From: Ectocarpus siliculosus
Lineage: Eukaryota; Sar; Phaeophyceae; Ectocarpales; Ectocarpaceae
Length of the DNA stretch: 54,516 bases
Direction: 5' to 3'
Assembly (NCBI GenBank): GCA_000310025.1
Contig: FN649747.1
Span: forward strand, 316,206 to 370,721
The notes under the pieces are model-generated. The model was given only the letters and a program-made list of their open reading frames with translations, made no database searches and was not told where the DNA came from. This document shows, in pieces, positions 8,566 to 34,430 of the stretch (position 1 is the stretch's first letter; each line of letters starts with the position of its first letter). The position numbers were made by a program, and so were the translations under genes.

Positions 8566-8932
8566 GACTCGTCCGAATCTCTGTGGTGCATAATGCAAAT
8601 GTCGTTCCCACGACAAAGAGGAAGGGACCGAACTGCGTGCAGAAAATTCCCGGTTTACCAATTTTATTTACTCGAAGGAAGCGACGGAGAGGGAACTGAT
8701 TCAACTATTGCAATGCAAAAGCTCCAGCGCTTGCCCTCTGCGTGTGCGGACTCGTCCGAATGTCTGTTGTGCATGAAGCAAACGTCGTTCTCACCACAGA
8801 AGGGGCGGAACTGCGTACAGAAAATTCCCGGGTTGCCAATATTATTTACTTCAAAGGAAGCGACGGAGAGGGAATTGATTCACCTATTGTATACAAAGCA
8901 AAAGCTCCAGCGCTTGCCCTCTGCGTGTGCGG
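8566..8932 (+). repeat. tandem duplication, 183-bp unit, two copies
   Basis: Units 8566-8748 and 8749-8932 both begin GACTCGTCCGAAT and end CGCTTGCCCTCTGCGTGTGCGG-like. They differ by many substitutions and several 1-4 nt indels, so a long open frame running through both (8464-9402) does not read the same peptide from each copy. Confidence 0.75.
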
Positions 8933-14632: not shown

Positions 14633-17229
14633 ACTTACCGCAGTGGGGTAGGTTCTGGCGCAGGAGAATATGTGGCCACTGTTTGGCTAGGGTCAGTCTC
14701 AAGAGCACAGCAGGTGTGCTCTGTAGGTGTGAGATGGATAGTGTTGATCTCATCTGGGGGGCAGAGGGCCGACCGCACCACAGGGATCGCCACCAGGGAA
14801 GAGCTAGAATTACGCGTCCCATCACGTCTGCTTTGATGTACATGCTCACCTGGTGAACAGGATCGGAGAGATTGTTGCCGTTCGTTCTTCCGTTCGTTCG
14901 ATTGCTGCTGCTGCGGACCGATGCGGACCGCAACAAATATTCCGCCCAGAAATAATCCACATACACGTTGCAGTTCTTCACCGACAATTCTGATGCTGTT
15001 GGTGTTAGCAGCGCTTCTGGTGGAGGAGTGGCGACGTGCCTGGGTGAGTGCTATTCGGTTGCTGCACGCAATCGTTGTACATGGGTGACATCGGGGACCG
15101 CAATGATCGTCTATCTATCTGCAGATTAGTCCTTTCGTTCTCCACGCGCATCACATTCCAGAAAAATAAAGAGTGTACCGGAATCACCGTTACCTGCAGC
15201 CAAATACACATCAAAAGACAAGGAGCACCCAGTAGCCCAACGGATACACACACGTACAACGAACCCGCCCTACCGGTCTCCTGCCCAGGATCCTCGGTAT
15301 GTTTCTTGCTGATCGAAAGCCGCCCCGGAACAGACAATACCCCGTCCTGCAGTTTCTACATCATGGAGCCTGGCATAGGATTCTCGAATTCTCTACGCTT
15401 CCTTTCGTTCCATGCGAAAGGATGATAACATTGACTGCGACGTTTATTCGGGAGAGGCGCGCGGGGGAACCGACGGTTTTTTATTTGAGGGGGGGGGGGG
15501 GACACGAAAAACGCAATTAATGCGTAGTCTAATGCGTGTATTTTATGTGTGGATCAAAATGGAGAATAAATATGCATACACGTGGGCAGTATGAATACAG
15601 CTGGCGTTTATTGGCGTGGTTCAGTGCTAATGGATATCAAACAGAAAGGCAGCTAACTGTACACGTACGTGGACGAGTGGACCAAGCTGGGGAGGGTAGT
15701 CCCTGATTCCTTTTCTTCGAAGACATCTATTTTATCGAGAAAAGCAAGGCTGACTGTGGGCAATTGGGGAGGTTGAACTGTGAGCGACTCGTGCTTGTCA
15801 TGAATGGATGGGATGAAGGAGATACAACAATACTAAAAATAGTAGAGGACACGCCCGCGAGCTGTCCATGCTGTTAGCAGTCTCGACGAGGAGTGCTGCT
15901 ACACGTCACCGTTGGGGGCATTCTGTCCAAAATAAATACCACAATATCATGCCGAACTTACTGGGAGCCAGGTCGACGCAGTCTTCAAAATATGTCGTCA
16001 ATAGATCGATGTTCTGGACATTTGTCAATATTCATTTTCACTCCTCGATCGTCTGCATTGAATTTGTTCCCTCGTTCGACAAGTTTCCCGAAGGTTCTAG
16101 CCGACCGGGGGCGGGCGGGGATTGACACGAAAATTGGCGGTGCCCGTCAAACCACCGTCGTCGTGTGCGGTTTCACTGTCCTCGGCGAAGGCCAAATATC
16201 TCTTCATGCAGGTGGTGGTACTTTCCTGGCAAGCTTCACATTCATTCAGGTTTATTTCGTGGAAATTGTGGAAAGTTCATGGAGGACGGGCAACAACCTA
16301 TCCCGTTGTTTAGTCTCAACTTACCATCAAACCCTGGCGTTTGCCATCTACCGCAATTTTCTTCGTGGAACTGGCGAAAAGAAAGAATATTTTATTTGCT
16401 ATCGAAGTGCAGCTCGATACGTTCTTTTTCCCATTCAGACCCGAACTATCGCCTTCCAGCAGCATGAAGATGTACAAGATTTACGTCCCACAGTAGAAGT
16501 TAGTTCGTGTTTTTCTTCCACGGAGTTTGAATCGAAGCATTCCGTGGAAAATGAAAAATGTATATGGAAAAGTAAATTCTGTAGTTCTCCACGGAGGAAG
16601 AGTTTCCAATGGGTTTCGGCCTGAAAGCAGTACCGCGGAAGTCCTGGAAACGCGCTGTAGAGAATGAATTTCGCCCTTTCCATCGAAGGTGCGCTTGACT
16701 CATCTGGAAGTTTCGCTTGGTTTCCACGGAAGATGAACACATATAGGGTGTGCCCTCGTCGTCGCTTATTTCGACTCTGCCTGATATCACCCACCGGGCA
16801 ATGCTTTCCGCCGATCAGGATTTTGCACCGATGTTGACCAAGAGGACCCTGCGCGCATTTGCCTACACGTTCCCTCCCTACCCAGGGTTCAATCGCTCCA
16901 CCCACAACGGTGCTTGCTTAGGCTTGTGACGTGTTCATACTCCTACGCGGGAGCCCGGTCTCGTGGAAAACGCGCGATCCCGCCGCGCGTACTCTGGGGC
17001 CAGGCGGCATCACTATTCCGCTCAGGGTTCCCTACAACCGAATGGATTTGTCCGGGTATTTATGAGAGAATATCCCGATCGTTGCACTTTGCGCCCAGAG
17101 TAGAACTTGCGCCCCAAACATCCACAAAGCTTGGAGAGCTACCACCGAAGCAGCCGATGTCAGTGAAAAATGTAGGAGAACATCTGGCATCTGGCGCTGA
17201 AAGAGATTCATATTTGGTTCGGCAGACGG
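14633..17229. other. intergenic stretch upstream of the secreted-protein gene
   Basis: The 5' part should hold the promoter of the gene that starts at 14632; I see no clear core element. A 243-codon open frame at 15893-16624 has no recognisable domain. A G-run lies at about 15489-15500. Confidence 0.4.
16250..16735. repeat. cluster of TTCCRYGGAA-type palindromes
   Basis: At least seven near-copies of a 10-bp palindrome occur within 480 bp: about 16256 (TTTCGTGGAAA), 16361 (CTTCGTGGAA), 16516 (TTCCACGGAG), 16540 (TTCCGTGGAAA), 16587 (CTCCACGGAGG), 16631 (ACCGCGGAAG) and 16722 (TTCCACGGAAG). Confidence 0.55.
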
Positions 17230-20200
17230 TTCACTCTCACATCCTAACACATTCTCGCCTCTATCCGAAGTCGTGGTTACACCGATCCCTTGTCCTCCGC
17301 CCCGCCATAGTCCTCCATCTCTTTCCAGCAGTACCAGACCTCTCTCAACGCCATACCCAGAAATTGTCCGCCTTCCCCTATCGTACCGTTCGAGGTGCAG
17401 GCGACACCCATCCCCACTCTACCGGCTCCAAGCTATCCAAGCTAAGGTCCGTCCAACATCTGCTTGGCTGCTCACAACGTCTGTGTTTGCAACCGCCGGG
17501 CGTTCCCTCGCCTTCCCCCACATCACACAAGTCTCGTCTCTACCCGAGCACCTGGCTGAATGGATCCCTTCTTCCCCACCCCAAGCCTAATTCATTCCAG
17601 CCCACCGGTTTGGCTTCAACCGACATCGCTCGTCGCCAAGCAAATACCTTCGCCCACGCTCCTCATGCCATGCCATCTTGCGCCCGGCTGGGCTCTTGCC
17701 TACACCGATCCCTTGCTATCCAACCCACGCTTCGCACGCAATCCTGACCTGCAACCGATATCGCTCTTCGCCACCAATCCGTGCCCCGAACCTTCTCCCG
17801 CCGCTCCATCTCGAGTGCAGCCGGATTCCTGGCTACGCCGGTTCTACACTCCCTTCTCCAGATATACAATCAACTCACGCCCAGCGACGCGAGGTACGCC
17901 TCCTTCTCCAACCGTTCTCTCGCAATGAATCCTGGCGTCCTACCGAGCGCCTCGCTACCCCGATTCCAAACCTTTCGATTCTTGCCTGATTTGCTCACTC
18001 CCACCTTCTCGCCGTCAAACCAAACCCCTCCCCGACCCTTCTCTCGCCATGCCATTCCGCGACCACCGGAGCTTCTGGCTAAACCGAAGGTTTGGTTCCC
18101 AATCCATGCCTCGTCCACCCACTCTTCCATCACCAAACAAAACCCACCCCCGGTCCTTCGCCCGCCATGCCATCTCGCGCCCAGCCGAGCTCCTGACTAC
18201 GTCGATTCGTTGCCTCCAGACCCATGCCTTGTTCACTCACTCTACCTTCCGTGGTATCGTTCCTTCCCCCTTCTCTAAACCCAACCCGTTGCTCGACCAT
18301 GCCATCTCACGTCCAGCCGAGCTCCGACTTACCCCAATAGCTTGCCCCGCAATCCTTCTTCACTCACACTCACTTGCTTCGCGTCCCTATACCTTCGCAA
18401 CCTGATGCCTCACCCTTCTCCCGCCATTCCATCTCGCGTCCGGCCGAGCTTCGACCTACCTGGATTGCTTGTCCCCCAACCCACGCCTTGTCACACACTG
18501 ACTCGCGTGGCGTCACTGCATTCGCCAACAACAGCCATTTCTCGAACCTTCTCCGGCCGCGACCTCTCTTATCCATGGCTCGACCGATTGCTGGCCGTCC
18601 AAGCCATGTAACGTGCACATTCTCTCATCTGAGCGGCATCCCTCCTCGCCGAGATATCTCCTTCCCCAATCATTTTCGTGCCACAAGATCTCGTGCCCCA
18701 ATGAGGACCCGTTTAGACTGAGTGATTGCGTTCCACCTCATCCATTATTCGTTCGGTGTCGCCGATGAGGCACCCCTCCTCACCAACCAATCCCTTCTGT
18801 AGACCTACCAACTTGCGGCAGCGGAGCTGTTGGTTCCTGTGATTTCTTGCCTCCCAACACATGCCTTCTTTCACTCGCATTAATCTGGGTGACATTCCTT
18901 CTCACCAACCAGATAATTTTCTTCACCCCCCTCCGGCAGTGCCATCTCGCGTCCAGTCAGGCTCCTGGCTCAACCAGTTGAATGCCTTCCAACCCACCCC
19001 GACTCCGCATCTACTCAATTGCCATCTTACGACCCGCCGAGCTCCTAACCACACCGATTCCGCGTTGGCCAAGTCCAGTGTTGTATACTCCGTCTCACCC
19101 ACGTCGATCGTTCTTTGCCAAACGAAGCCCGTCTGCAAACCGTCTCCCGCCATGGCTCCCGGCAACCATGGGCGAACCTCCTGGCTAGACAAAATGCTTT
19201 GCCAAGAATGAGTTCTCGTCTACTCGCCTCCGTGGGACGCCTTCGCTTCGCACCGATCGATCTCCTGACTACACCGATTCCTCGGCTCTCAACCTCGACA
19301 TTATTCACCCAATCGCACCTGCATGACATTCACCCATCTTCACAGCAACCCCTTCGCGAACCATATTGCCTACCGGCCGAGCTCCTGGAAAAACAAACTT
19401 CCTTGGATCCCTACCCATGCCTTCTTCATTCACTCTCAGCTGCTTCGAATCCCTCCTTGCCAACCCAACCGAGCTCACGGCTACATGGAACATTTGCTTG
19501 TTATCCCCAGCCTTGCACCCCTCCTGTCACCCGCGTGGCGCCCCTCCTTGCCAACCAACAACCTTTGCGGACACTGCTCCCGTGTCATGTTCATGACTAG
19601 GCCGACTCCTTGCCTCCGAAACGATGCTTTGTTCCATGACTGTCCTCTGCGTTGCATCCCTCATCGTCAAACAAATCGCTTCCGCAACCCTTCTCCCACC
19701 ATGCAATCTCGGGCCCAGCAAAGCTGCTGGCTACACCGATTGCTTGCCGAACTGACAGCGCTTTGTTCACTCACTCGCCCCTGCGAGGCACTGTTCGTCG
19801 CCCAACCCAGCCTTTTCCCAGCCCTTTTCCCGTCGCACCCGGTGCCGATCCGTGGAGTATCTTTCCTTCCCAAGCAATTCTTTGTTTGTGGCTAGACCGA
19901 ACACTTGCCGGTTGACCAATGCCTTGTTCACTCACTCCCATCTGCACGACATCTCTCATCCCCTACCTTCTCTCAACCTGCTCTGATATTACTCTCGTGC
20001 CCATGGCTAGACCGATTGCTTGCCACCGAAAGCATGATATATTCACTCCATGTCACCAGTATGACACCCCCCTCGTCGCTAACGAATCCTTTCTCCGACC
20101 CTGCTTCCAACAGCTAGGTCGCATGTAACGGAGCTTCTGGGTAGACGGATTCCGTCCCCCCGAACCAACGCCTTCTTCACTCAGACGAATACTGCGTGGC

Positions 20201-22250
20201 ATCCCTTCTCGCAACGATGTCCATTCCCTGACCCTCTCGCCAAGACATCTCGCGTCCAATCAGGCTCCTGACAATACCAACGGCTTGCCTCCCAACCCAC
20301 CCCAAGTCCTTTTCCCCTCAACTACTGCCGGTTTGCGTTCCGCCGAGATGCTGACAACACCGAATCTATGCCTCCCAACGCCATCCATATTCACTCAGTC
20401 TCCCCCGCGTGGATGAAAACCTCGTCAATCGACCTCAAAATATATGCACAGAATCACGTGTCTCCGACGCCATGCCATATTCACTCTCACCCACACCTAC
20501 GTGCCATCGCTCATCGCTAAATCAACCAAACGCCGACCCTTCTCCGACATTGCACTCTTAAGGCTTGCCGACCTCCGAGTCCTCGCCGATAGTTATCCCG
20601 CCGAGCCATTTCACGTCCTGCCAAGCTTGTGGCTATACTAGTTCCTGGCCTCCCATGCCGTCCCAAGTTCACTCACTCTCGTCTGCGTAGCATGTCTCCT
20701 CACCAAGTTGATCCCTTCCCCTTCGATCTTTCGCCATTCCATTTCACGTCCGACTGAGCTCTTGGCTATGGTGATTGCTTGTCTCCCACTCTTGTTCACT
20801 CACTTCCAGCCTAGTGGCATTGCTTGTGTCGCCAACCAACCCTTTCCCCGACCCTTCGCCCGCCGTGTCTTGTCGCGTCCAGCCGAAGGTCTGACTACAC
20901 GGCATTCTTGCCTCGTACCCCACGACCTTTTTACTTTCACATACCCGCGTGGGATACCTCCTATCCAATCGGACTCCTTTCCCGACCCTTTTCCAACCAT
21001 GCAATCTCGCGTCTAGCAGGGGGCCCTGGCTAAATCAATTGCTTGTCCCAACACGACCCATGTTCACTCACTTCGGGCTGCGTGGGATCAGTCATCGCCC
21101 AACCACTCCCTTCCCCAACCCTTTCCGTGTCATCCCATCTCGAGTCGGGGCGAGCCTCTGGTTAGGCCGCTTTTCCTTCTCATAACCCGCTCCTTGTTCA
21201 CTCAGGCTCACATGCCTCGCCTTGCCCCTCGCCATACCACCTCCTTTCCCCTACCCTTCTTCTCCATGACATCTCGCGTGTTCCGATTCTCTGTCTAAAC
21301 CAATTGCTTGCATCCCAATCCATGCCTTAGTACTCAATTCAAACTAGGTGGCATCCCCCTTCGCGCTCGCTCTTCCTTGACGCTTCTCCGGCCGTGCCAT
21401 CTCACGTCTAGCCGAACTGCTGGCTGTGTCAATTCTTTGTCTTCCAACCCAGACTTCAAAGTCACTCACTGGCGTCCGTGTGGCATTCATTCCGGCCAGA
21501 CTAATCACTACCCCCATTTCTCCTTTAGAAATCTCACGTCATGCCAAGCTCCTGGCTTAAGCGATTGCTTCCCTACCGGTCCAAGCCGTGCTCAATCATT
21601 CCCATCTGTGTGGCACACCACTTCACCCGACCGAACTGTCCTCCAACCCTTCTCCAACCATGCCATCTCGGGCTCAAGGCTAGACCGATTTCTCGCCGCC
21701 CACGCCAAGTTTTTCATACTCACTCTCACAATGACCTTCCCTCCTAGCCAACCCAACCGCTTCCCCGACCGGGTTCCCGCCGTGCAGTGCCCGTTAGAAG
21801 GTATCCTTGCCGCCGAGTCCGTGCCATGTTCACTCCGAAATTGTTTGTGTAGCATGTCTTTCTCGCCAATCCACATCCTTGCCCGACCGTCTTCCCGCCA
21901 TGCCACCTCACGCCCAGCCGATCTTCTGACTCAACCGATTCCTCGCCTCCCTCCCCGTGCTGCATTCACTCTTCGGCGTACTTCTTCGCCGAACTAATAC
22001 CTTCCACCGCATTTCTCCCGCCACGGCGTCGAACCTCCGGCCGAAGCCTAGCTACACCAATTGCTGGCCTTCAACCCCGAACTCTCATCCACTCTATGCT
22101 GCACGGCACCTGGGCTTGCCAAACCATCGGCTTTGCCTGCAATGGCGTCCGGCGTACAGCCCAGCTCCTGGATTCACCGATCCCCCCCCCCCATAGTTGT
22201 CCTCTCCATTACATTCCAACCGGCATGCCGGAGGCGGCATCGCTCCTCGT
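17230..22250 (+). repeat. diverged tandem satellite array, ~120-135 bp monomer
   Basis: A pyrimidine-rich monomer recurs about forty times. Its landmarks, in order, are CCATCTCGCGTCCAGCCGAG, CTCCTGGCTACACCGATTGC, TTGCCTCCCAACCCATGCC, TTGTTCACTCACTC, GCGTGGCATCCCTCCTCGCC and CCCCGACCCTTCTCCCGCC. The CCATCTCGCG landmark falls for example near 17669, 17806, 18049, 18170, 18302, 18428, 20867, 21000, 21132, 21398, 21530 and 21660, giving spacings of about 120-135 bp. Monomers differ strongly from each other, so the array is old. Open frames through it are by-products of its skewed composition. Confidence 0.85.
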
Positions 22251-22253
22251 TAA

Positions 22254-23334
22254 CCCTTATGTGACTACAGGCCGATTCAGCTCGTTCTCAGCTCCGATCA
22301 CTTTGCGTGCCGAAAGATCGCCGTTGTGCCTCGGCTAAGAGCAAAAAACATACATAGAGACCAGCAGGGAGACACAGGCAGCCCACCCCAAAAGCACGCT
22401 TATCAGCAATGCGCACAGGACTCACATAGCACAATACTATTCACCCATGCCTAATCTCTCTGACGTGGGGCAGATATCCTTTCCAGATCCAATCTACTGT
22501 CTACCAGCGGTCAAGATTCAAACGCAAAATACGGTATACATACAGCACCCTGAACATGTGATCAACCCGGTGCCGCATCCGCGTGGGAGAGCAGAGAAAG
22601 CGCACACCGGAGCCGATGCTAACGTACTGCCTCGGTGCTTGATGTTGTTGTGATTGCGGTGCGTGTGGTTCCCAATATTGGGAGTGAAGGGTGGTTCGTC
22701 TGCTGTGTGCAAAGTTTCGCTCAAAGGCAAGGGTTTTCGGGACTACAGCTCCGATCACAGCTCCGATCACAGCTCTCTATTTTGTAGTACAGAATAGTTA
22801 AATTTATCACGATTTTTTTGCATTTTGTGCGATAGTGGATGATGGTCTTGATTCTCTGATGAGCGGGCCGTTTTTTTGTCGATCTGGCGCTTCTGTGAGG
22901 CGGTTTCCCGTCAGCGTCTTCGCATCTAGCGCCGCTAGCATTTGCGCTTGCCGTATGCTCTGTCCAAGGATGAGGTGGAGAAGATGTGCCAACAGGTATT
23001 GCTTGCACAGGTACATCCTCTGTGCGGATGGTTGCTGTCGGAGACAGGCATGCACACCTGCTCAGAAACTACTGCTGCTGCTGTACAGCAGTCTATTTCT
23101 CTCCGCATAGCTGCTACTGCTGTACAGCAGTAGTACTACTACTGTACTCCTGTTCGTCACCCTTACATATACCGCGTCCCCATCCCTGTGAGCCCCACAC
23201 ATGGACCCACTGCTGCACCATCCTTGCCGCCGTGATTTACGGGTGTACACGCATGCTTGGAAGATCTTTGACCGCAGAGAGCCAGTTGTGGGGAAAAAAA
23301 CAAAACATTTCAAATTAACCCAGTCACGTAAGGG
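22254..23334. mobile_element. piggyBac-like non-autonomous element (TTAA target site)
   Basis: The left end reads TTAA then CCCTTATGTGACT (22250-22266); the right end reads AGTCACGTAAGGG then TTAA (23322-23338). The 13-bp terminal inverted repeats differ at one position and both sides carry the TTAA that piggyBac elements duplicate. The element is 1081 bp. It interrupts a satellite monomer, and the flanks on both sides are satellite, which shows it is an insertion. Inside are a repeated GCTCCGATCACA motif near 22747-22772 and CTGCTGTACAGCAG palindromes at 23075-23135. I find no transposase, so it would depend on a transposase supplied elsewhere. Confidence 0.75.
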
Positions 23335-23338
23335 TTAA

Positions 23339-23905
23339 TCCCAGCCAATGTGCCACCCTCCCCCCACCATGCTCTCTTGCTGCCAATAGCTACACCAACT
23401 CACGGCATTTTAAACCTACCCCCAAAGCGGCAGCCGACATCGCTCTTTGCCAAGCCCAGTCCTTGTCACGCCCTCCGCCCGTCTCGCCTATATCGGTGCA
23501 TATGCGTAGCTACATCCCGCGCCAAATTCATTGCTCTCCCACCTGTTTGGCTGGACCAATCGTCTGTGCTCGCCCAACCCCAGCGCTTGCCCCCGCCCTT
23601 CCCCTCCATCACCCCGACTCGCTTCAATCCGTGCTCCTGGTTACGCAGATTCCTCGCCCCACACATCACACTCACTCGATTCCTTTCCAGCGGTAGCGCT
23701 CCACACAACATGGCTCCTGGCCGAACCTGGCCAATGCCCCACCCGCCCTACGACCTCTCCGACTCCCCTCCATCCGAGCTTCTGGCCTCGTCCAACAACA
23801 GAAGCCAAAATCACTTTTTAACTACCTGGTTGGCTGCACCGGACATCCGTCCTGGCCAAACTCAACCACATTCCCCCGGCTTCACTAGACCACCACCGGA
23901 AGCAG
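23339..23905 (+). repeat. satellite array, continuation beyond the inserted element
   Basis: The same satellite family resumes (for example GCAGCCGACATCGCTCTTTG at 23423 matches CAACCGACATCGCTCGTCG at 17617) and decays into unrelated sequence near 23905. Confidence 0.65.
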
Positions 23906-24149
23906 CTGCTGTCTGAATGTTGGTTGATGATTGCTCGGCCCGCACTTTTGCTGTTGTGTGTGTGCTATGCAAAGTCGATATCCCGCCCTTCTGGAAAGTG
24001 GACTCCTTGACTGATGAAAACTTGTGCTCCCGGCCTGCCGCCGCCTCTGGAGTCTCTCCAACTACTACAGTATGCCTCACGTCACCACCACCGCGAAGTT
24101 GCCTTGATTGTGCCCTAAGCGCTTACTTACCCGCTTCGAACGCCGACAT

Positions 24150-32719: not shown

Positions 32720-34430
32720 GGAGCGAGCAAGCCACAGGCATATCCTTACAAGGTCCGAGACAACCACGCGGCCCTTGATCCTCCTCAAACTCCTCAAATC
32801 GAAAGGAACTGCCCGAATATGGTGTGTGTTTCCGACGCAGAAGATTTCTCGCGAGACGACCGGTGCAAGAATGCAGGAATTGGCGTCATCATGAGACCGG
32901 TGTAGCCATTTCTTGCCGACCAGACAACCACGCGGCCCCTTGATGCTGCTCAAATCGAGAGTGACTGCCCGGATCAGGTGTCTGTTTCCGAGGCAGAAGA
33001 TTTTTCGTGAGCAGACCGTTGCAAGAATGCAGGGATTTGCGTCATCATGAGACCGGTGTCGCCATTGCTTGCCGACCAGACACCCACGCGAGCGCTTGTC
33101 GCTTTCGGAGTCGTAAGCGACAGAGCCCGGATAAGGGGTCTGTTTCCGGCGCAGAATATTTATCGCAAGAAGACCGGTGCAATAATGTAGGAATTTGCGT
33201 CATCATGAGATCGGTGTCGCCATTTCTTCCCAACCAGACAACGACGCGGCCCCTTGATAATTTCACGAATCGAAAGCGACTGGCTTGGATAAGGTCTCTG
33301 TTTCCGAGGCAGAAGATTTCTAGTGAGAAGACCGGTGCAAGAATGCAGGTATTTTCGTCCATCATGAGACCGGTGCCGTTATTTGTTGCCGACCAAACAA
33401 CCACGCGGCCCCTTGATGCTTCTCGAATCGAAAGAGACTGCCCGGATAAGGTGTCTGTTTCCGACGCAGAATATTTATCCTATGGGAGAAGACCGGTGCA
33501 AGAATGCAAGAAATTGCGTCTTGACGAGACCGGTATCGCCATTTCTTGCCGACCAGACAAACCACGCGGCCCTTTGATGCTTCTCAAATCGAAAGCGAGT
33601 GCCCGGATACGGTGTATGTTTCCGACGCAGAAGATTGTCGCAAGAAGACCGGTGCAAGAATGCAGGGATTGGCGTCATCATGACCGATGTTGCCATTCCT
33701 TGCCGACCAGACAACCACATCGTCAATTTTTGCTTTCGGAATCGAAAGCGACTGGCCTGATAAGGTGTATGTTTCGGACGCAGAAGGTTTCTCGCGAGAA
33801 GACCGGTGCAAGGGGATTTGCGTCATCACGAGACCCGTGTCGCCACTTCTTGCCGACCAGACAACCACGCGACCCCTTGTTGCTTTCGGAATCGAAAGCG
33901 ACTGCCCGGATACGGTGGTTGTTTCCGACGCAGAAGATTTCTCGCTAGACGACCGGTGCAAGAATGCAGGAATTGGCGTCATCATGAGACCGGTGTCGCC
34001 ATTGCTACCCGACCATACCACCGCGGCCCGTTTCTTTCCAGATCGAGAGTGACTGCCCGGATAAGGTGTCTGTTTCCGAGGCAGAAAAGTTTTCGTGAGC
34101 AGACCGGTGCCAGAATGCAGGGATTTGCGTCATCATGAGACCGTGTCGCCATTGCTTGCCGACCAGACACCCACGCGAGCCCTTGTCGCTTTCGGAGTCG
34201 TAAGCGACAGCCCGGATAAGGGGTCTGTTTCCGACGCAGAAGATTTATCGCAAGAAGACCGGTGCAATAATGTAGGAATTTGCGTCATCATGAGACCGGT
34301 GTCGCTATTTCTTGTCGACCAGACAACCACGCGGTCCCTTGGCTTTCCGAATCGAAAGCGACTGCCCGGACAAGGTGTCTGTTTCGGACGCAGAAGATTT
34401 CCCGAGAGACATACGGTCTGGAAGATCCAC
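32720..34430 (+). repeat. tandem array, ~153-bp unit, about 11 copies
   Basis: The unit contains GACCGGTGCAAGAATGCAGG, TTGCGTCATCATGAGACCGG, TGTCGCCATTTCTTGCCGAC, CAGACAACCACGCGGCCCCT, GACTGCCCGGATAAGGTGTC and TCCGACGCAGAAGATTTCTC. The ACCGGTGCAAGAATG landmark recurs near 32861, 33010, 33173, 33332, 33495, 33650, 33803, 33954, 34103, 34257. Some units are open as a 51-codon peptide repeat (CKNAG-CVIMRPVSP-LADQ ... CPDKVSVSDAEDFS), but indels break the frame between units. Confidence 0.85.

Follow-up and report, generated by a model that had tools for sequence, protein, structure and literature searches.

The window analysed here is a stretch of 54,516 nucleotides of the Ectocarpus siliculosus genome (C22:316206-370721), and the genome searched comprises 189.5 Mb in 492 contigs. 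At positions 22250-23338 the window holds TTAA, 1,081 bp and a second TTAA, inserted in a C-rich repetitive region (Table 1). The sequence reads TTAA-CCCTTATGTGACT from 22250 and AGTCACGTAAGGG-TTAA up to 23338, which confirms the claim of the preliminary description that the ends lie directly against TTAA on both sides. The inverted ends are 13 bp long with one mismatch, and CCCTTAYGTGACT is present at both; short terminal inverted repeats beginning CC(C) are typical of the piggyBac superfamily. The 17-mer TTAACCCTTATGTGACT, with up to three mismatches allowed, matched the window only at the two element ends, and two such matches occurred in 0 of 100 shuffled windows. The internal 12-bp tandem repeat resembles the left subterminal part of the element, and its units are possible transposase-binding repeats. 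A palindrome described earlier at the right end is indeed present there, but it is not conserved: the inner TTAACCC is found in 14 of the 23 copies compared below, the right end of the 10-kb relative reads GGGTTC without it, and the palindrome looks incidental.

The longest stop-to-stop frame within the element is 115 aa. Thirteen internal frames reach at least 50 aa; 10 of these were scanned, none with a Pfam match at E 0.1, and BLAST against the transposase-coding part of the autonomous elements described below gave short chance-level matches only. The element carries no transposase gene of its own and is thus non-autonomous. In the window as a whole, nothing was found with Pfam at E 0.01 (10 of the 42 ORFs of at least 150 aa scanned) or with Rfam at gathering scores. 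Two further tandem arrays lie at 32797-34409 (156-bp unit, 10.4 copies) and 8566-8932 (183-bp repeat, 2 copies, 85% matches). The genome also contains EsV-1-7 motifs, with 150 matches among the best 150 of 880 candidates and 0 in 14 control genomes; according to the text of PMC12477816, this domain has multiplied in brown algae and, outside them, is known mainly from giant viruses.

Table 1. Features of the insertion locus (window positions) and autonomous copies without a left TTAA (contig positions)
Feature	Position	Strand	Remark
Left part of C-rich degenerate ~133-bp tandem array, insertion target	17000-22249		
Left TTAA, target-site copy	22250-22253		TCAA at the paralogous unoccupied site, likewise preceded by CTCCTCG
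Left terminal inverted repeat CCCTTATGTGACT	22254-22266	+	
Non-autonomous piggyBac-type element (very probable), long MITE, 1,081 bp	22254-23334	+	many copies, flanks mostly unrelated, longest frame 115 aa
Internal 12-bp tandem repeat ACAGCTCCGATC x2.6	22745-22775	+	resembles left subterminal CAGCTCCGATCAC
TTAACCC-10 nt-GGGTTAA palindrome, right end and its TTAA	23315-23338		varies among copies
Right terminal inverted repeat, CCCTTACGTGACT on the - strand	23322-23334	-	
Right TTAA, target-site copy	23335-23338		
Right continuation of target sequence	23339-24000		paralog alignment over about the first 190 bases
Autonomous copies without left TTAA	C30:3060663-3069378; C12:2161872-2170250; C66:42474-52467; C11:4292503; C82:151124; C3:7304388		

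The flank had been described as a satellite monomer. It is strongly C-rich (GC skew of -0.33 to -0.42 at 17-22 kb of the window) and periodic, with an autocorrelation peak of 0.311 at lag 134 (mean 0.278, sd 0.007), i.e., a period of ~133-134 bp, and the copies of its main 78-nt repeat family are 60-78% alike. Tandem Repeats Finder listed no arrays at 17-22.2 kb, and a 650-bp piece of the left flank was found at five further places in the genome only, in a search that skips very common words. The flank is therefore repetitive and periodic as described, but it is part of a local degenerate ~133-bp tandem array and not a clean, high-copy satellite.

On the opposite strand, C22:203157-203569 matches the left flank at 68%, right up to the last base before TTAA. 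This paralogous array, 135 kb off on the same contig, is unoccupied and runs through the insertion point. Aligned with the 651-base paralog, the joined flanks scored 218, whereas 200 joins in which the right flank was shuffled in two-letter blocks averaged 162.5 and did not exceed 175. The right flank alone scored 66.8, and 300 shuffles of the same kind reached 30.5 at most. After the common CTCCTCG the paralog has TCAA where the window has TTAA, and the alignment contains a gap of one base at the TTAA site and another of ten bases shortly after. The unoccupied C22 site is a paralog, not an allele. The earlier reading that the flanks form one unit without the element agrees with the comparison with the paralog, which was more informative than local alignments inside the window, where the join scored 24.2, a value reached by 89 of 200 random-phase controls.

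Searching the genome with the element gave 42 rows among the best 40 of 243 candidates. Copies of ~1.08 kb with the same ends and TTAA had been anticipated, and among these best 40 we found 38 near-full rows, i.e., the window and 37 other copies, 86-96% identical; the remaining four rows stem from two copies that are each interrupted by an insert. We compared 23 copies: the window, the seven best by similarity (L002-L008), and 15 traced to a search with the end motif (13 from the listing of its places and two from fetches around them). Flanks of up to 150 bp per side cross-matched at E 1e-4 in two pairs only (54 bp at 80% and 26 bp at 92%). Because the flanks differ between nearly all 23 copies, the ends are true boundaries, and no copy continuing past them was seen among the copies read. 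A chance inverted-repeat pair beside TTAA, with no mobile element behind it, would be helped by TTAA being a common tetramer and 13 bp being short, but it is refuted by copies with unrelated flanks and we consider its probability negligible: homology between the copies spans all 1,081 bp and stops sharply at the ends, and the end motif TTAACCCTTAYGTGACT with at most one mismatch occurs at 244 places genome-wide (not all independent insertions, see below) versus 2 for the reversed pattern.

In this set, of which the 15 copies from the motif search are biased towards TTAA, the tetramer is present on both sides of 10 copies, on the left of 16 and on the right of 17, and 13 of the 23 are without it on at least one side. 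Among L002-L008, which were ranked purely by similarity, the right side has TTAA in 7 of 7, and the left side has TTAA in three, a sequence one letter off in three, and a truncation in one. The element thus shows the TTAA target-site duplication of the piggyBac superfamily. Copy lengths were 1,069-1,096 bp in 21 of 23 and 1,048 and 1,056 bp in the other two, being extrapolated for eight copies whose match did not span the element from end to end; such multiple copies of uniform length are those of a MITE.

One flank was common to 13 of the ends read (L016, L106, L109-L112 and L118-L124, L122 with a small change). Searching with the L016 flank gave 42 rows among the best 40 of 390 candidates, including 22 long matches counting L016 itself. 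This host repeat was rejected as a source of empty sites, as all seven places read contain the short element. The L016-type sites look like one insertion amplified together with its host repeat; hence neither the 103 places of a 53-base inner left-end pattern (at most three mismatches, control 0) nor the 244 places of the end motif are counts of independent insertions. The repeat lies at C4:3726024-3726523 and on C94, C120, C121, C130, C143, C182, C360, C460 and others, mostly on contigs numbered above C50. The same terminal motif also bounds other short elements with diverged interiors at C13:1250542 (L036, 75% identity over 586 columns, 662 bp between end motifs), C7:2276140 (L024, 71% over 259 columns, 601 bp), C9:718016 (L025, 376 bp) and C30:1224535 (L095).

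A non-autonomous family, as the preliminary description pointed out, would need an active transposase elsewhere in the genome. PF13843 (DDE_Tnp_1_7) matches this genome 29 times, each time above the cut-off, and has no match in 14 control genomes. The end motif lies upstream in matching orientation in 15 of the 29, at 4.9-5.8 kb in 14 cases and at 9.3 kb in one; for the remaining 14, some of which are second matches within one element, end motifs were judged among the first 100 of the 244 places. A DDE_Tnp_1_7 transposase between the same ends is thus present in the same genome. Twelve of the 15 have an L072-like left end, two belong to a second type (C187, C16) and one is the C184 element; those on C3, C11, C66 and C456 were typed from left-end pattern matches. 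L072 (C25) and L073 (C53), both of the common type, are 99% identical over their aligned parts. The left-end pattern of this type was found at 25 places, 19 of them exact over 44 bp, and its right-end pattern at 19 places, 16 of them exact over 40 bp, with controls of 0 for both. By their coordinates, left and right ends could be joined into thirteen pairs: nine measure 9.88-10.11 kb, three 8.3-8.7 kb and one, L042, 5.4 kb. TTAA stands on both sides of ten of the pairs. A run of 3,101 N lies inside the copy L042 (L042:1550-4650). Two pairs of autonomous copies have identical 12-bp left flanks, one pair at C53:262816 and C24:2132065, the other at C23:3486966 and C162:90140; these are possibly duplicated or haplotype contigs.

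The ORF pieces of L072 match DDE_Tnp_1_7 at profile positions 35-86 and 153-282, and at 288-347 below the cut-off, and the transposase ORF matches the piggyBat transposase in PDB (E 1.8e-5). Its motifs ICDVAGY, MDNYFT and MGGVDTADQ look like those that hold the three catalytic aspartates. The alignment to piggyBat transposase supports the second aspartate, and the first and third are putative, judged by motif. In the Trichoplusia ni piggyBac transposase these residues are given as D268, D346 and D447 (PMC7351741). A further ORF of 295 aa inside the autonomous element, at L072:567-1451 (+), contains DGHCGF and HNHFD and has no significant Pfam or PDB match. These two motifs are, as we presume, reminiscent of OTU-type cysteine proteases. 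Six of the 25 autonomous left ends match the 40 bp of the element perfectly, yet lack TTAA (Table 1): the C30 copy has TTAC on both sides, the C12 copy TTTAG before and TTTTAG after, and the C66 copy GGAA before and TTAA after, and for the C11, C82 and C3 copies right ends were not found with at most three mismatches. Such sites point to a relaxed choice of target in some insertions; for Pokey, ~10% non-TTAA duplications are given in PMC3849761. The ~10-kb partner could, tentatively, represent an unusual piggyBac lineage that combines extra reading frames, one of them OTU-protease-like, with relaxed target choice, though an ordinary lineage is the likelier case.

The short element and the ~10-kb type have 16-17 bp and side-specific letters in common at each end. 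The left ends read TTAACCCTTATGTGACTACAGGCC... in the short and TTAACCCTTACGTGACTACACCCC... in the autonomous element, and the right ends TTAACCCTTACGTGACTGGGTTAA... and TTAACCCTTTCGTGACTGGGTTCT..., respectively. The side-specific letters agree with the commonest autonomous type, GTGACTACA on the left and GTGACTGGGTT on the right (ACA, GGGTT), whereas the second transposase-bearing type (C187, C16) has AACCCC after the shared left end instead. The C184 element starts with TTAACCCTTATGTGACTACACCCACGAATGAGCTCCG...; the short copy L116 on C24, which aligns with the window element over 1,129 columns at 89% identity, is 96% identical to the C184 element over its first 55 bp. The right end of the latter was not found in C184:16900-18460 with at most two mismatches. 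Beyond ~17-20 bp per end, the window element has almost nothing in common with the autonomous elements fetched, the longest match being at most 51 bp at 82% with C184, and a search for the short-element interior in them turned up nothing beyond the ends and short matches of 11-27 bp. The window element is therefore not a plain internal deletion of the fetched elements. Membership in some other superfamily of DNA transposons with TTAA or similar target sites would agree with an interior in which no coding homology was detected, and TTAA with short ends does not by itself prove a superfamily. We consider this reading very improbable, as the same end motif with its side-specific extension bounds DDE_Tnp_1_7 elements with a PDB match to piggyBat.

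We are therefore highly confident that the window element is a non-autonomous transposon of the piggyBac superfamily, a long MITE that would be moved in trans by a related ~10-kb element. The boundaries, TTAA on both sides, mostly unrelated sites, the unoccupied paralogous site and the transposase elements with the same ends were all observed, and the copies, the paralogous site and the matching transposases together uphold the original non-autonomous piggyBac-like reading. Judged from these sequences, the short element is very probably mobilized by the ~10-kb piggyBac transposon. The transposase from the autonomous element would bind the ends common to both, cut the short element out and paste it at TTAA, leaving TTAA on both sides; by analogy with the chemistry in the piggyBac literature, this route may involve TTAA hairpins and seamless repair (PMC7351741).

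It is possible, although we tend to doubt it, that the short family is no longer active and consists of relics to which the present transposases do not respond any more, which would be compatible with the non-autonomous piggyBac reading. The mean pairwise difference among copies of 5.5% (0.3-11.1%) and the 13 copies without TTAA on at least one side speak for such a loss, whereas the two closest copies are just 0.3% apart, the window copy departs from the majority state by 1.2%, and 19 of 25 autonomous left ends agree exactly over 44 bp. These latter points bear on recent activity only.

The short element is of an ordinary, well-precedented kind. Its arrangement with the ~10-kb partner is nearly the same as that of mPok and Pokey in Daphnia pulex as described in PMC3849761, where mPok is a long MITE of ~750 bp with 90-110 genome copies, sharing ends of 12 or 16 bp with Pokey, a larger autonomous piggyBac element. 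Both short elements have many copies, a central region without observed similarity to the autonomous partner, and mostly TTAA duplications with, for mPok, ~10% others. In contrast, mPok shares 160 and 350 bp with its partner, compared with ~17-20 bp per end here, and is also found in 28S rDNA (PMC3849761). Coral CMITEs are presented as another such case (PMC2872659). The autonomous partner resembles T. ni piggyBac in TTAA specificity, short asymmetric ends and a DDE-type transposase, but piggyBac has a single ORF of 594 aa according to PMC7351741, while the partner is ~10 kb long with transposase homology in separate open frames and further ORFs. For Ectocarpus sp. 7, four PiggyBac families with 1,588 copies, 289 of them intact, are listed in Table 1 of PMC12477816, whose main text names PiggyBac once, without ends or sequences; the short element may be one of these four. 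In the literature, supplements excepted, we found no paper evidently about it. While the short element leaves our knowledge of piggyBac or MITE biology unchanged, it provides a matched pair of a short and an autonomous piggyBac-type element, probably brown algal, with defined ends and young copies, which can serve annotation and the study of insertion polymorphism.
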